A DNA stretch of 64,000 nt from a bacterium (Candidatus Blackallbacteria) CG13_big_fil_rev_8_21_14_2_50_49_14 (GTDB taxonomy: Bacteria > Cyanobacteriota > Sericytochromatia > UBA7694): positions 62,001-126,000 of the forward strand of contig PFGG01000041.1 of the NCBI GenBank assembly GCA_002783405.1, written 5' to 3'. The notes beneath the pieces were generated by a model. The model was not told the origin of the DNA and made no database searches. It saw only the letters and a list, made by a program, of their open reading frames with translations. Positions 385 to 30,822 of the stretch are shown here, piece after piece (position 1 is the stretch's first letter; every line of letters starts with the position of its first letter). The position numbers and the translations under genes were made by a program.

Positions 385-2343
385 TTAACTGACGCGCGCA
401 CCCGGTGCGACGTCATCTAATACAGTGAGAATACTGAATTGCGTTTCGTTTTTTGCAGCCAGAAGCATGCCGCGCGATTCCAGACCGCGCAGTTTTGCGG
501 GTTTTAAATTGGCGACGACAATTACTTTTTTGCCCAATAACTGCTCTGGGCTGTAGTGGGCTGCAATGCCCGCAACGATCTGGCGTTGTTCAGTGCCCAA
601 ATCTACGATCAGGCGCATCAGTTTGTCTGTTTTGGGAACCCGTTCAGCTTCAGCAATCTGGGCCACACGCAATTCAACCTTGCCAAAATCTTCGATACCA
701 ATCAGATTGGTTCCTATTTGGTCTTCGTTGGCTGGTGCAGGGGCGGCTGGGGCAGATGCTTGCGCTGGAGGGGCTTGGGTGACGGGAGCTTCTGTGACAG
801 TGTTTTCCATTTTCTTTTCCTCTTGAATAAATTCTTGACGGGGGAACAATACGCGCGGTTCATGGGTCTGTGTACCCGCGGGTAAAACACCCCAACTTAG
901 TTTCAGGTCTGTTTCCTGCAGGCCCAATTGCTCGAGTAGGTCGTTGATTTTTCCGGGAATCACAGGGGCCAGCAAGGCGGCTGCGAGACGGAAAATTTCC
1001 AATACATGCCAGAGAATGGTGCCTGTACGGGGCAGGTCTGTTTTTGCGGTTTTCCAGGGAGCCGTCTGCTCCATATATTTATTGGCGCGACGTACCAATT
1101 GCAGGGTTTCTTCAAGCGCCGCGTGCAGTTTATAATCGAGCACCCATTCGCGCACCTGTTTGATGGTTGTGTGTGCCAGGGTTTCAAGCTCAAGCTCCAA
1201 CTCTCCTTTTTCAGCAGGGGCTGGAATCACCCCTTCAAAATTGCGTTTGAGCAGGTTGATGGTGCGGTTGAGTAGATTGCCAAAATCATTGGCGAGATCG
1301 CTGTTGATGCGATCGACCAGGGCTTTTTCACTGAAATTGCTATCAGCTCCCAGGCTCATATCCCGCATCAGAAAATAGCGGAAGGCATCAATCCCGTATT
1401 TATCCATCAACTCCAGGGGTTTCACCACATTGCCTTTGGATTTGCTCATCTTGGCGGCATCGATAAGCCACCAGCCATGGGCCAGAATGGTCTTGGGGGG
1501 TTCATAGCCCGCGGCCTTGAGCATGGTGGGCCAATAGACACAGTGGGTGGTCAGAATATCCTTGCCGATCAAATGTACAGAATGGGGCCACCATTTTTGC
1601 AATTCTTCGGTGCCGCCCCTGGCCAGGGGGACAGAGATATAGTTGATCAAAGCATCAAACCAGACATAGGTCACGTAATCCCGGTCAAAGGGCAGTTCAA
1701 TTCCCCAGCTCAAACGGGATTTGGGACGTGAGATACACAGATCTCCCAGGGGTTGGCGCAAAAATCCCAAAATTTCATTGCGGCGACTTTCTGGCCGGAT
1801 AAAATCTGGATGGCTTTGGATATGTTCAATCAGCCAGTCCTGAAACTGCGACATTTTAAAGAAATAGTTTTTTTCTTTGATAAAAGTAATTTCAGGGCTC
1901 TCAGGGGTATAGCCCTTTTCTTCGATTTCTTTATCTGTCAGGAAGCGCTCTTCAGAAACTTCATACCAGCCCTCATAGGTGGCATCATAGATCAGCCCTT
2001 TGTCCCAGATATTCTGAAGGATTTGGGTCACGATTTGCTGATGCCGGGCTTGGGTTGTGCGTACAAAATCGTCGGGTTGAATGCCCATTTTGGCCCAAAG
2101 CTCCTGAAAACGAGGGGCCATCCGATCGCAATGTTCTTGGGGGCTGATCCCCAATTTTTCTGCGGCCTGTTGCACTTTCTGGCCATGTTCATCCAAACCG
2201 GTCAGAAAGAAGGTTTCCTCGCCCATGATCCGGTGATAGCGCATCAGCACATCGGCCAGGGTGGTGGTATAGGCATGGCCAATATGGGCTTCATCGTTTA
2301 CATAGTAGATCGGAGTGGTGACGTAATAGCGACTTTCGCTCAT
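385..2343 (-). CDS. metG: Methionyl-tRNA synthetase with C-terminal tRNA-binding domain
   Basis: This class I synthetase charges tRNA-Met with methionine in the cytoplasm. The protein is 652 residues from the chosen ATG at 2343, which has AGGAAGG upstream; an ATG 45 bp further out would add 15 non-conserved residues. The catalytic core opens with TTPIYYVND and HIGH at residues 20-23, and KMSKS lies near residue 300. The insert between them lacks the usual zinc-binding cysteine knuckle, so this is the zinc-free type. A Pro/Ala linker near residue 530 leads to a C-terminal EMAP/Trbp111-like OB-fold (KVELRVAQI, GMLLAA) that helps dimerisation and tRNA binding. A perfect TATAAT lies 32 bp upstream. 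The next gene starts 26 bp downstream. Confidence 0.96.
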   Translation of the reverse strand: MSESRYYVTTPIYYVNDEAHIGHAYTTTLADVLMRYHRIMGEETFFLTGLDEHGQKVQQAAEKLGISPQEHCDRMAPRFQELWAKMGIQPDDFVRTTQARHQQIVTQILQNIWDKGLIYDATYEGWYEVSEERFLTDKEIEEKGYTPESPEITFIKEKNYFFKMSQFQDWLIEHIQSHPDFIRPESRRNEILGFLRQPLGDLCISRPKSRLSWGIELPFDRDYVTYVWFDALINYISVPLARGGTEELQKWWPHSVHLIGKDILTTHCVYWPTMLKAAGYEPPKTILAHGWWLIDAAKMSKSKGNVVKPLELMDKYGIDAFRYFLMRDMSLGADSNFSEKALVDRINSDLANDFGNLLNRTINLLKRNFEGVIPAPAEKGELELELETLAHTTIKQVREWVLDYKLHAALEETLQLVRRANKYMEQTAPWKTAKTDLPRTGTILWHVLEIFRLAAALLAPVIPGKINDLLEQLGLQETDLKLSWGVLPAGTQTHEPRVLFPRQEFIQEEKKMENTVTEAPVTQAPPAQASAPAAPAPANEDQIGTNLIGIEDFGKVELRVAQIAEAERVPKTDKLMRLIVDLGTEQRQIVAGIAAHYSPEQLLGKKVIVVANLKPAKLRGLESRGMLLAAKNETQFSILTVLDDVAPGARVS

Positions 2344-14011: not shown

Positions 14012-16825
14012 CTATTCCCAAATTTTGAGTTTTTGTGCTTGAACGGGAAGGGCGCGCTGAAAAACACTTTGCATAAGTTTTTCTCTGCCGCTTTCCTGGC
14101 GGGTATAGATTAAATCTGCGGGGCCGACCCACTCCATAAAACAGCTTTTGAAGATTTCAGCCTTTTCTCTGCTGCGTGCAAGCAGCCGTGGAACAGGCAA
14201 AATGACTTTTCCTTGCTGTTTTTCGCGTATCTGAGGCATGAAGCCCCAAACCGCTTGAAATTCAATTTCTGTAATTGGAATTTCCAGAAGATAGCGCTGT
14301 TCTTGCAGGGGTTCAAAAATTTCCTGGAGGGATTGGCTAAAATATTTTGATTCATCAGGCTTAACCTGTTCCAGAAAAATGCGCACAGAGCCATCGCTGC
14401 GTTGACTGAATCTGAGTTGCGTTTGGGTTGAGAGAATGATTTCTGCTCGCTGTAGAGCCTGAAGTGTCACCTGGGCCAGGTTTTTGATAATTTCATATTC
14501 ATTTTCAGTTTGTTTGAGCAAAGGGGTCCAGGCTTTTTTTCGTGAATTTCTGTATTTCAAAAGACTGAGTTCCGTCAGTAGAATCAGGCTGAGACTGAGC
14601 CCCAATCCTATTTCGCCAGGCCAGAAAATCCAGAAAGTGACAAGGCTGAGTGATTCGAGTATACGGGCCGATTGAAGGTGGAAATCTGCCTGTCTGCATT
14701 TGAGTTCGAGGGCCTGATACTGTGTTTTTACCGTGCGCGGCAGGGTCTTCAAACGGGGGGCTTGAAGGGAGCGTTTCCCCGGCACTTCTGTTTTGGGGAT
14801 TCGCAATTGCAGGCCGTTGAGCTCTTTGCCTTGATAGGGTTTTCCAATTCCCCAGCGATCCCAGGCGAGGAGCCTGTTTTGAGCCCGCTCCAAACATTCT
14901 CGATTCAGATGGGCCATTTCTGCCAGCAATTCCTGGGGCTGAATTTTTCCCAAAAGGGCATGTACATGGCCAGCGCCCAACTCCAGGCAGCCATCTTCAC
15001 TGATCCCGTAAAAACGTTGGTGCTTGCGCTGAAAACGCTCTAAATCCCGGAATCCTCCTTCCAGTTCAGGGAGCAGGGCCACAATATCCCAATTATTTGC
15101 GAGTTTTAAAGGGTTGAGAGGGTCAAAACGCAGGCTGCGCCCTCTGATTTGATTGACCGAGACATAGGAGCTGACAGCTGTGAGATCAATCAGTGTATTT
15201 AAACTGCGACAATCCCAACCCTCCCCGAGCAGGCCTCGGGTGCCGACCAGACAACGGGAAAGTCCTTTTTCAAAAAAATCAGTCACCAAAGCCAGATATA
15301 CGCTGCTTTTCCAATCGCTGCCCTGACCCAGTATTCTGAAAAAATGGTCACAGGCTTCAGATTTTAAACTGACTTCAAGCTGATTGGTGCTGAACCAGGT
15401 TTTGGCTTCTTGCAGAAAACCCGGCAAGGCCTGGGCATTGCATAAAAGCGTTTGGCCCGTCACCATTAAAGGGTGCAGGTTTTCAAGTTCAGGGTGTGTG
15501 CTGAGATAGCGCATCACGGCCAGGGCTCCGCCGGCTTCTGGATCCAAGAGCCCTTCTGCCGCTCTGCCACCGGGTGCGTGGGTGGTTTCAAAATCAGTGA
15601 GTACCAGGGCTCTGAGTCCTTCACCCATGGCAGCTTGTTCTGTCAGCAGGATTTGTTCCAAGCCGCGCAATTTAGCTGCTGATAGCGCAAGAATTTTTTC
15701 AATGCTTCCCGAACGTCGTTTGAAACGCCCCTGTTCATAGCGGTATCCCAGGGCCAGAACAGCTGATTTTAAGTCATTCCAGACTTTATTTTCCCGGTCT
15801 TTCAGGAGCACAGCTCCGTAGGCTCCCAAACAGCTCACCAAATCTTCCAAACTGGGAGGATCTTCCATTTCTGGGCTCCAGGGTATGCCTTCTGGAAAAA
15901 TGCCAAGACTGTAGAGATAGCGTACCAGGGCAATGCAAACATCGGGTTCCCGAATCAGGAATTCAGTGGGTTTGATGGGGTTGCCTTTGCGATCGGTGGG
16001 ATGAAGCAAGCAGTCTTCGGCCCAAATACTGAGTTGGGGACGGTCTGGATGGGGGGTTTCCAAGCTTTTTAAGAGACGGTGCAAGGCCTGGTGGGCACCA
16101 GAAACAAAGTTGGATTCAGCTTCTGTGGGTCTGACCAGATAGACCAAATCCTGAAAAGGAGCCAAATGCCCCTCTTTAATCACAGCGGGGGTGGGCACTT
16201 CGAAATCGACGGGGCCGATCAAATCTAAGTAGACTGCGCGCTCTTTTTCTTTGCGATCAAGCGGAGGCGTGGCCGTTAGGCCAATCACAATCGCTTCAGG
16301 CACTTTTTGCAGATAGACCTGAATTGCGGCCGCCCAATGGGCAAGCAAATGGTGGCACTCATCCAATAAGAGGGTGTGATAACCTTGTTCAGCGAGCTGA
16401 ACAAAGAGTTTTTCCACCTGGCGGTGCAAGAATTGTCCCTCCTGGCCTTTGATACTGAAGGCTTGATAGGTCAGTGAAAGAATAGCAGGGGATTTCTCAA
16501 GATCGGTACTGATAATCGTTTGTTCTACGGGAAGATCTTCGATGGCCTCAAGATCAATACTGAGCTGACTAAATTTATCGACCCACTGCTGTTGGATCGG
16601 AGTGGTGGGCGAAAGAATCACCGTTTTTTGGCCGATGCGTCTGGCCAATTCAAGCCCTATCAGGGTCTTGCCACTCCCTGGTGGGGCAACCAGATGCAGC
16701 TGCCTTTCGCCGGCCAAAATCTTTCCCACGAGTGTTTCAAGCGCTTCGCGTTGATAGGGGTGGTAATTGACGGCCAGTTCAAACGATTGAAAGAGATCTC
16801 CGAATATTGCCATTCTAGGGCTCAT
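14012..16825 (-). CDS. Large SF2 (DEAH-type) helicase with a hydrophobic hairpin
   Basis: This 937-residue protein has helicase motif I PPGSGKT at 48-54, motif II DECH at 155-158, motif III TATPP near 184, motif V in GTRGLLGEGWDC, and motif VI QIRGRSLRF. These place it in the restriction/UvrB-like SF2 group. An insert of about 250 residues separates the two RecA lobes. At about residues 723-755 two hydrophobic stretches around WIFWPGEIG (LSLVTFWIFW, then LGLSLSLILLTELSLL) look like a membrane hairpin, followed by a soluble C-terminal domain of about 180 residues. No nuclease motif or methylase neighbour was seen. It is monocistronic. The cellular role is not known to me. Confidence 0.85.
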   Translation of the reverse strand: MSPRMAIFGDLFQSFELAVNYHPYQREALETLVGKILAGERQLHLVAPPGSGKTLIGLELARRIGQKTVILSPTTPIQQQWVDKFSQLSIDLEAIEDLPVEQTIISTDLEKSPAILSLTYQAFSIKGQEGQFLHRQVEKLFVQLAEQGYHTLLLDECHHLLAHWAAAIQVYLQKVPEAIVIGLTATPPLDRKEKERAVYLDLIGPVDFEVPTPAVIKEGHLAPFQDLVYLVRPTEAESNFVSGAHQALHRLLKSLETPHPDRPQLSIWAEDCLLHPTDRKGNPIKPTEFLIREPDVCIALVRYLYSLGIFPEGIPWSPEMEDPPSLEDLVSCLGAYGAVLLKDRENKVWNDLKSAVLALGYRYEQGRFKRRSGSIEKILALSAAKLRGLEQILLTEQAAMGEGLRALVLTDFETTHAPGGRAAEGLLDPEAGGALAVMRYLSTHPELENLHPLMVTGQTLLCNAQALPGFLQEAKTWFSTNQLEVSLKSEACDHFFRILGQGSDWKSSVYLALVTDFFEKGLSRCLVGTRGLLGEGWDCRSLNTLIDLTAVSSYVSVNQIRGRSLRFDPLNPLKLANNWDIVALLPELEGGFRDLERFQRKHQRFYGISEDGCLELGAGHVHALLGKIQPQELLAEMAHLNRECLERAQNRLLAWDRWGIGKPYQGKELNGLQLRIPKTEVPGKRSLQAPRLKTLPRTVKTQYQALELKCRQADFHLQSARILESLSLVTFWIFWPGEIGLGLSLSLILLTELSLLKYRNSRKKAWTPLLKQTENEYEIIKNLAQVTLQALQRAEIILSTQTQLRFSQRSDGSVRIFLEQVKPDESKYFSQSLQEIFEPLQEQRYLLEIPITEIEFQAVWGFMPQIREKQQGKVILPVPRLLARSREKAEIFKSCFMEWVGPADLIYTRQESGREKLMQSVFQRALPVQAQKLKIWE

Positions 16826-16861
16826 TTTAACAGAACTGTCGCAGATTCGAAATATGTCTGA

Positions 16862-16916
16862 TAAGTAAAAAATATACTTAAATCTACTTACATATTCTAA
16901 TTTTGTAGGTTATTAT
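16862..16916 (+). promoter_or_regulatory. Promoter with TACTTA repeat cluster for the 16.9-kb small transcript
   Basis: TTACAT (16888-16893) and TATTAT (16911-16916) are separated by 17 bp. TACTTA occurs at 16875-16880 and 16885-16890, exactly 10 bp apart. Its inverse TAAGTA is at 16862-16867. The second copy overlaps the -35, so a regulator bound here could block RNA polymerase. Confidence 0.65.
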
Positions 16917-17013
16917 GAAGATGTCAGCAGAAAATCTACTGACCACCCTCAGAAGGTTTACCTTCTGATGATGTCTGTTTTCAGGCGGTCAACCCGCTGG
17001 GAAGGAGGCTTTT

Positions 17014-17079
17014 ATGCAAGCTAAAACCACATCACAGGATCTTTGGTATTTATTGCAATCGCATCGCAATCTCTTATAG
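17014..17079 (+). CDS. 21-residue small ORF with near-perfect SD
   Basis: AAGGAGG (17002-17008) lies five bases before an ATG that opens 21 codons beginning MQAKTTSQDLWYLL and ending with TAG. The peptide is half polar and half aliphatic/aromatic, with no signal peptide, so a cytoplasmic or amphipathic helix is possible. The SD is one of the strongest in the window, and a terminator follows the stop by six bases, which argues that translation is real. It could be a small protein or a leader peptide that senses translation. The sequence resembles nothing I recognise. Confidence 0.5.
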   Translation: MQAKTTSQDLWYLLQSHRNLL

Positions 17080-17084
17080 GCTCT

Positions 17085-17115
17085 AAACTCCCTGAAAAGT
17101 CTTTTCAGGGAGTTT
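17085..17115 (+). terminator. Rho-independent terminator of the small transcript
   Basis: AAACTCCCTGAAAA pairs perfectly with TTTTCAGGGAGTTT across a three-base loop, a 14-bp stem followed by GCTTTG. It ends 35 bp before the SGNH gene, so that gene needs its own promoter unless the terminator is read through. Confidence 0.85.
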
Positions 17116-17141
17116 GCTTTGTGGGGGCTTGCGCGTAAAAT
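17114..17141 (+). promoter_or_regulatory. Possible promoter of the SGNH gene, giving a leaderless mRNA
   Basis: TTGCTT (17114-17119) and TAAAAT (17136-17141) are 16 bp apart. Transcription would begin at about 17148, two bases before the ATG, and no SD is present, consistent with a leaderless message. Confidence 0.45.
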
Positions 17142-17149
17142 ACTAGAGC

Positions 17150-18436
17150 ATGAATACCCATTTTCAGGGGCGTGCTGCTCCGATATACATGATTGGCGAC
17201 AGTCAAACCCTTGTTTTCAGCCATTTGCTTTTTGAAGCAGAATTCCAAGGGCAAAAACGGCAAATCATTACAGAAGCCAAATATTGTCCTGGTTTGGCCG
17301 CTCATAATTTTTCGGATCCACGGGGCCGACTGCATGAGACACTGCTGCGTGCCCTGATGGGTGATTGCCTGCTCGATCGTGAGAACCGTGCGCTATATCA
17401 GTTTCAAAGTCCCCAGGCCGGTCTTTTGAATTTATTGGCGGGCCGTTCGAAGGCCTCGCCCGTTTTGGTTTTCTTTTGTGGTTCTGCTGATTTGGTCAAT
17501 GTCTTTCAACGCCATTTAGGGCTTGAAAATGACTTTTATCTTCCTGATCAGGAGACCCTTTTAGCGGCCTTTCCTGAGAGCTCAGCCCAGCAGGTTTTTC
17601 CCTTTGAAACAGCCCGGCTCTATTTGCAGGATCTGATTCAACCGCTTTACCGGGGCTTAAAAAAGTTGCAGGAAATGGGATTTGATCAAATCTATCTTCA
17701 CGATCTGGTGCCACAAACCAGTGATGATCATGAGTTCAGTCTGATCTACCAATACCAGTGCCCCGCCCGTACGCGTATCAAAGCGCAACTCTTGATGAAC
17801 CAGCTTCTGCGCGAAATGGCGCAGGCTCTCGGCATTCGCTTTCTTGAAATTTGGCCCAAGGTTACCCATCAAAATCGCAGGATCGAGTCGTTTGCTTTGG
17901 ACAGCATTCATCTCAATAAACAGGCTGCATTCTTAAGTTTTGAAACCCTTTGGAATGAGATGTGCAGCGCCTTAAATGCCCAATACCAGCCCGAACCTGC
18001 AGATTTTCCTGACTTAATTGAAACGGTCAATGAACTTGCCATCCTATGGTCTCAATGGGCCCATACTCAAAAATATTCCAAAATTCTTGAAGACGCGCTT
18101 CAACGTGCGGATTTGTTTAAGCTGATTGCCCGTCGGCAAGTTGAATGGGAAGCTCAGCTTGAAAGTTTTGTCACTGTTTTACACGCTTTGGTTCAGGCCC
18201 ATTATGCGCGGGGGGATTTGACTCAAATTTCTACCTTGCTCACTCAATATGCTGCTTTGGTGCGCTTTCACAGGCCCTTGGCTCGACCAGAATCTTTGCC
18301 CGCCTTGAAACTTCAGAAATCGATCGGTGAGGAAGTCGTGCTGCCAGCACGTTTTGATCCTGCTCAGACAGATCTGATCTTTTGGGCCACCTTGCAGGGG
18401 ATACCGATTCGCATCCAGCCGCGTGGATCTGCTTGA
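17150..18436 (+). CDS. SGNH/GDSL-like hydrolase-fold protein
   Basis: This 428-residue protein starts with YMIGDSQT (GDS at 16-18, block I of SGNH hydrolases). It has FFCGSADL near residue 110, like block III, and ALDSIHLNKQA at about 250, like the block V D-x-x-H pair. These give a possible Ser-His catalytic pair. The C-terminal 160 residues are helical and unassigned. There is no signal peptide, so it should act in the cytoplasm. Family members deacylate or de-acetylate lipids, glycans or peptides. The substrate is unknown. It lies directly after the small transcript and may be leaderless. Confidence 0.65.
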   Translation: MNTHFQGRAAPIYMIGDSQTLVFSHLLFEAEFQGQKRQIITEAKYCPGLAAHNFSDPRGRLHETLLRALMGDCLLDRENRALYQFQSPQAGLLNLLAGRSKASPVLVFFCGSADLVNVFQRHLGLENDFYLPDQETLLAAFPESSAQQVFPFETARLYLQDLIQPLYRGLKKLQEMGFDQIYLHDLVPQTSDDHEFSLIYQYQCPARTRIKAQLLMNQLLREMAQALGIRFLEIWPKVTHQNRRIESFALDSIHLNKQAAFLSFETLWNEMCSALNAQYQPEPADFPDLIETVNELAILWSQWAHTQKYSKILEDALQRADLFKLIARRQVEWEAQLESFVTVLHALVQAHYARGDLTQISTLLTQYAALVRFHRPLARPESLPALKLQKSIGEEVVLPARFDPAQTDLIFWATLQGIPIRIQPRGSA

Positions 18437-19044: not shown

Positions 19045-19060
19045 GCAAGTATTTTTTTAA

Positions 19061-19094
19061 GGGCACAGCAGTCCATGCTGTGCCCTTTTCTTTT
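19061..19094 (+). terminator. Rho-independent terminator of the lipoprotein gene
   Basis: GGGCACAGCA and TGCTGTGCCC form a 10-bp GC-rich stem with a five-base loop, followed by TTTTCTTTT on the plus strand. Confidence 0.9.
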
Positions 19095-30790: not shown

Positions 30791-30822
30791 AAAGGCCGGG
30801 GGTGATTGCACCCCCGGCCTTT
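30791..30822 (+). terminator. Strong terminator after leuS, shared with convergent adh
   Basis: AAAGGCCGGGGGTG pairs with CACCCCCGGCCTTT around a four-base loop, a 14-bp very stable stem with AT-rich ends on both sides. It should stop transcription from either direction. Confidence 0.9.

Follow-up and report, generated by a model that had tools for sequence, protein, structure and literature searches.

Intergenic microprotein genes of 15-70 codons have been catalogued in the Enterobacteriaceae, and SpfP, the 15-residue protein encoded by Spot 42, binds Crp, which shows that so small a peptide can act on a protein (PMC11188072). Comparable arrangements are found in SgrS/SgrT, where a base-pairing regulatory RNA also encodes a peptide, and in peTrpL, a trans-acting leader peptide that comes from a trp attenuator (PMC7298713). 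Stand-alone small-protein genes are known from cyanobacteria in NblD/NsiR6, with a product of 66 aa (PMC7760959), and atpT, which has an HLR1-like RpaB site (PMC9241938). Proteins so short fall under the length limits of gene callers, and sequence alone rarely proves them real.

The locus described here lies in a 64-kb stretch of DNA (the window, by which we mean the whole stretch analysed) from a member of the Sericytochromatia, a class of the cyanobacterial phylum that has been little studied. It is likely to be an unannotated stand-alone gene for a protein of 18-21 residues, present in at least two genera of one Sericytochromatia family. Like the genes of the enterobacterial census, it has a very short intergenic ORF with signs of purifying selection, is lineage-restricted and has an N-terminus that varies around a conserved core; unlike them, it is a single Sericytochromatia gene whose promoter and terminator also recur, with no known sequence relation to them. 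With Spot 42/SpfP and SgrS/SgrT it shares a short terminator-ended transcript, a promoter of its own and a tiny ORF, but base-pairing is without evidence here and the non-coding part is not conserved. It recalls peTrpL in that a terminator closely follows the coding sequence of a very short peptide, whereas at this locus the downstream gene changes between genomes and there is no codon run. NblD/NsiR6 and atpT, from the same phylum, resemble it as regulated-type stand-alone small-protein transcripts and in the 10-bp-period direct-repeat promoter element, yet their products are much longer and the repeats here match HLR1 just partly. Promoter, spacing, codon pattern and terminator are consistent between the two genera, and this makes the locus a concrete test case in the Sericytochromatia.

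Results

The intergenic gap (16826-17149) has on one side a divergent gene for a ResIII/XPB-like helicase of 937 residues (14012-16825, minus strand) and on the other an SGNH-type gene (17150-18436), downstream of the small unit. The original prediction had placed three repeat sites, a promoter, hairpins, a Shine-Dalgarno (SD) site, an ORF and a terminator within about 255 bp of this gap; each was present on re-examination. The full architecture of a small gene is contained in 255 bp between two ordinary genes. The flanking genes diverge, so neither can be ended by a strong plus-strand terminator in the gap, which must close a transcript begun there. The unit has its own promoter and terminator, independent of the neighbouring genes. 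Among small ORFs the architecture (an ATG ORF of 15-40 codons, an AGGAGG-type SD, and a stem of at least 9 bp with a T-rich tail within about 60 nt) was unique in the 1.53 Mb of the source genome scanned. The SGNH-type protein has a GDSQ motif and no Pfam family match; the sole relative found, 54% identical, is in G001, a genome of the same genus. Relatives of the helicase exist in the family, in unrelated neighbourhoods.

The 21-codon ORF (MQAKTTSQDLWYLLQSHRNLL, 17014..17079, plus strand) gave one good match in a peptide search, in G002, a genome from a different genus of the same family (single-sequence query, E = 0.0056 per genome, 20 genomes). Conservation is confined to the C-terminal 12 residues, LWYLLQ(S/T)HRN(L/V)L, which are followed by the stop; the N-terminus of the G002 counterpart (MKKQDTLWYLLQTHRNVL) differs in length and sequence. 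Although the tail codons differ at 12 nucleotides, mostly by synonymous change, 10 of the 12 residues are identical and the stop falls at the same place; across the 13 aligned codons including the stop, 9 of the 14 nucleotide differences fall at third codon positions. By simulation, 12 random differences over the 12 sense codons keep at least that many residues without a stop with P ~2e-5 to 8.5e-5. The peptide search itself favours such a codon result, which is why independent evidence, that of the promoter, matters. The comparative basis is two sequences, the source genome and G002, and on these purifying selection has left its signature in the C-terminal 12 codons, in a reading frame with an excess of synonymous change. 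The 21-residue product matched no Pfam or NCBIfam profile, libraries in which short queries score poorly. Its tail combines a moderate helical hydrophobic moment (0.41) with low mean hydrophobicity, which suits attachment to the surface of a protein or membrane and not membrane spanning.

Downstream of the ORF is an intrinsic terminator (17085..17115, plus strand) of 14 perfect pairs (arms 17085-17098 and 17102-17115) with a 3-nt loop and an interrupted T tract; the hairpin alone is predicted at -19.7 kcal/mol. Its stem ties for the longest of such stems in the window, against 8-10 bp in five shuffles. The G002 ORF is likewise followed by a strong terminator, in the corresponding position of the unit. 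Just past the terminators of both genomes stands the 10-mer TTGTGGGGGC (17119..17128, plus strand; G002 copy at contig L036 1401-1410, minus strand), and a -10-like box for the gene that follows comes directly after it. The window has further perfect stems, 12-14 bp long, at 2498-2527, 19059-19087 and 30791-30822; these are probably ordinary terminators.

Three of the eight TACTTA/TAAGTA sites of the window are packed into 29 bp, with TAAGTA at 16862-16867 and two copies of TACTTA at 16875-16880 and 16885-16890. TAAGTA is the left half of a palindrome, TAAGTA-N7-TACTTA (16862..16880, no strand assigned), a candidate operator that is the only exact copy in the genome; one further copy has 1 mismatch, and the left half is not kept in the G002 alignment. 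Conserved in G002 is a 23-bp promoter element (TACTTAAATCTACTTACATATTC, 16875..16897, plus strand) made of two 10-bp direct repeats over the -35 region, with 19 of 23 positions identical on the same strand (G002 TACTTAttTCcACTTcCATATTC versus source genome TACTTAaaTCtACTTaCATATTC). The -10 boxes, TATTAT in the window (16911..16916, plus strand) and TATGAT in G002, begin exactly 13 bp after the element in both genomes; the element itself begins 139 bp before the start codon in the window and 76 bp before that of G002. When the two intergenic regions were shuffled as 300 pairs, one pair matched as well anywhere. The best -35/-10 pair joins a weak -35-like hexamer, CTTACA (16887..16892, plus strand), to TATTAT with an 18-bp spacer and 9 of 12 matches; the promoter had been foreseen with 17-bp spacing, which needs a poorer -35. 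Transcription is predicted to start near 16923 and to yield roughly 195 nt.

A pair of 10-bp direct repeats lying over a weak -35 box is what activator sites of OmpR/PhoB-type regulators typically look like. The HLR1 site of RpaB consists of two (G/T)TTACA(T/A)(T/A) repeats 2 nt apart (PMC9241938). When the window (CTTAAATC-TA-CTTACATA) and G002 (CTTATTTC-CA-CTTCCATA) are compared with it, the 10-bp period fits and the full consensus does not; with repeats that resemble HLR1 in part, RpaB as the regulator would be a lead, not a conclusion.

The leader is predicted to fold into three plus-strand hairpins, at 16923..16943, 16949..16968 (8 perfect pairs) and 16973..17009, and the 5' leader alone is more stable than 300 of 300 shuffles (z = -3.6). 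The third hairpin pairs the strong SD, AAGGAGG (17002..17008, plus strand), with six of its seven bases predicted to be paired at a probability of at least 0.86 at 10-50 C. An RNA thermometer is not favoured, the SD being predicted as paired up to 50 C. The G002 leader is ~60 nt shorter, lacks the three hairpins and has no structure in common with that of the window; its SD is weaker and stands 11 nt from a start codon that is largely open in the predicted fold. On this comparison the three hairpins look lineage-specific and are not what selection kept in common. A search of Rfam 15 gave no family at the gathering threshold (best His_leader, 21.6 bits versus 49).

Sequence comparison shows that promoter, coding region and terminator recur together in G002 as a unit, with another gene downstream: there the unit lies upstream of smpB and divergent from a PerM-like gene. 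The G002 contig and the window showed no synteny by blastn. Across the 18 class genomes scanned, the peptide pattern occurs once in the source genome, once in G002 and in no other, and the promoter element at up to two mismatches is likewise present once in each of these two and absent from the rest. No further promoter of the same type was found in 27% of the source genome at lower stringency. G001 (94% complete) has neither the peptide nor the promoter pattern, and its weak profile match sits inside a longer coding ORF; the three family genomes examined other than the source genome and G002 all lack the unit, two of them being 83% and 73% complete. The DNA of the unit, searched against 59 relatives, phages and plasmids, matched only itself, and that of the G002 unit gave just short chance-level matches in the class genomes. 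The peptide had no match in plasmids, phages or viral contigs, nor the promoter element in viral contigs; a looser TACTTA-triplet pattern gave 14 viral matches, roughly the chance number for a collection of that size. Weak peptide-profile matches arose in 131 of 386 phylum genomes, and those inspected lacked the tail-then-stop and were judged to be chance. The regions upstream of smpB in 13 readable class genomes, including the source genome, contained neither promoter nor peptide.

G002 has in addition an 8-codon ORF, MQARLNRR (contig L036, ~1554-1582, minus strand), and both this and the window ORF start with TATGCAAGC. The 8-codon ORF and the start of the peptide ORF overlap in an ATGA, which could couple translation.

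Discussion

From these comparisons the small-protein gene is very probably real. The original prediction of a small-protein gene that annotation would miss is supported, since peptide, promoter and a terminator recur in a second genus and most of the codon changes there are synonymous. Conservation of ORF codons or stems in relatives had been proposed as the test; the codons are conserved in G002 and the stems are not. Points that speak against the gene are its absence from G001, the variable N-terminus, the weaker SD of G002 and the almost fully paired SD predicted in the window. It is scarcely credible that the ORF is non-coding and its similarity to G002 spurious: a 21-residue query is short and its single-sequence E value applies per genome over 20 genomes, but the promoter matches upstream on the same strand with fixed spacing, the differences follow codon position, a terminator is present in both genomes, and the peptide and promoter patterns each occur once per genome.

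The suggestion that the unit is a transcription attenuator or arrest-peptide leader of the SGNH gene did not survive comparison and is now very improbable. Between the end of the terminator and the SGNH start are 34 bp, which leaves little space for a separate promoter, and TTTTCAGG, an 8-nt copy lying upstream (16978-16985), could pair with the 5' arm of the terminator; against so stable a terminator hairpin, however, an 8-bp competitor is unlikely to win, and no single regulatory codon is repeated in series in the ORF. The SGNH gene of G001 lies 4 bp after another ORF and has no leader, while the helicase gene is on another contig without the unit upstream. A leader that stays with its regulated gene is not what the relatives contain. 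That the unit does not travel with a regulated downstream gene argues against attenuation, and the change of downstream gene (smpB versus SGNH), together with the leaderless SGNH gene of G001, points to a stand-alone small-protein gene. A dual-function RNA, in which ~195 nt would act by base-pairing and also encode the peptide as in SgrS/SgrT or Spot 42/SpfP, is unlikely, if less so than attenuation. It would suit the transcript with its own promoter and terminator, the unusually structured leader and the regulated look of the promoter, but RNA outside the coding region is not conserved in G002, where the three hairpins are missing, and no Rfam family reached threshold; the conserved base-pairing non-coding part that marks such RNAs was not found in the one relative compared. 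A regulatory role of the RNA itself is possible, with no conservation behind it.

As a stand-alone small-protein gene, the unit would be switched on by a transcription factor, most simply an OmpR/PhoB-type response regulator, bound to the two 10-bp direct repeats over the -35 box, and would produce an mRNA of ~195 nt ending at the terminator. Hairpin 3 would hold the ribosome-binding site; translation would then need loading during transcription or a hairpin-opening factor. This hairpin may be a second gate in the source genome that G002 is without. The peptide would work through its conserved tail, probably a short helix that docks on a partner protein or at the surface of the membrane, which it is too short and too polar to span. 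At 12 residues the tail is short enough for synthesis and direct use as bait for a partner. A more speculative and rather unlikely reading is that a microprotein gene has changed neighbours and has a dedicated promoter element, present once per genome and only with this gene; its regulator would be kept mainly for one protein of 18-21 residues, and the SD-hairpin gate would have been added in one lineage. The TACTTA sites could also act on the divergent helicase promoter.
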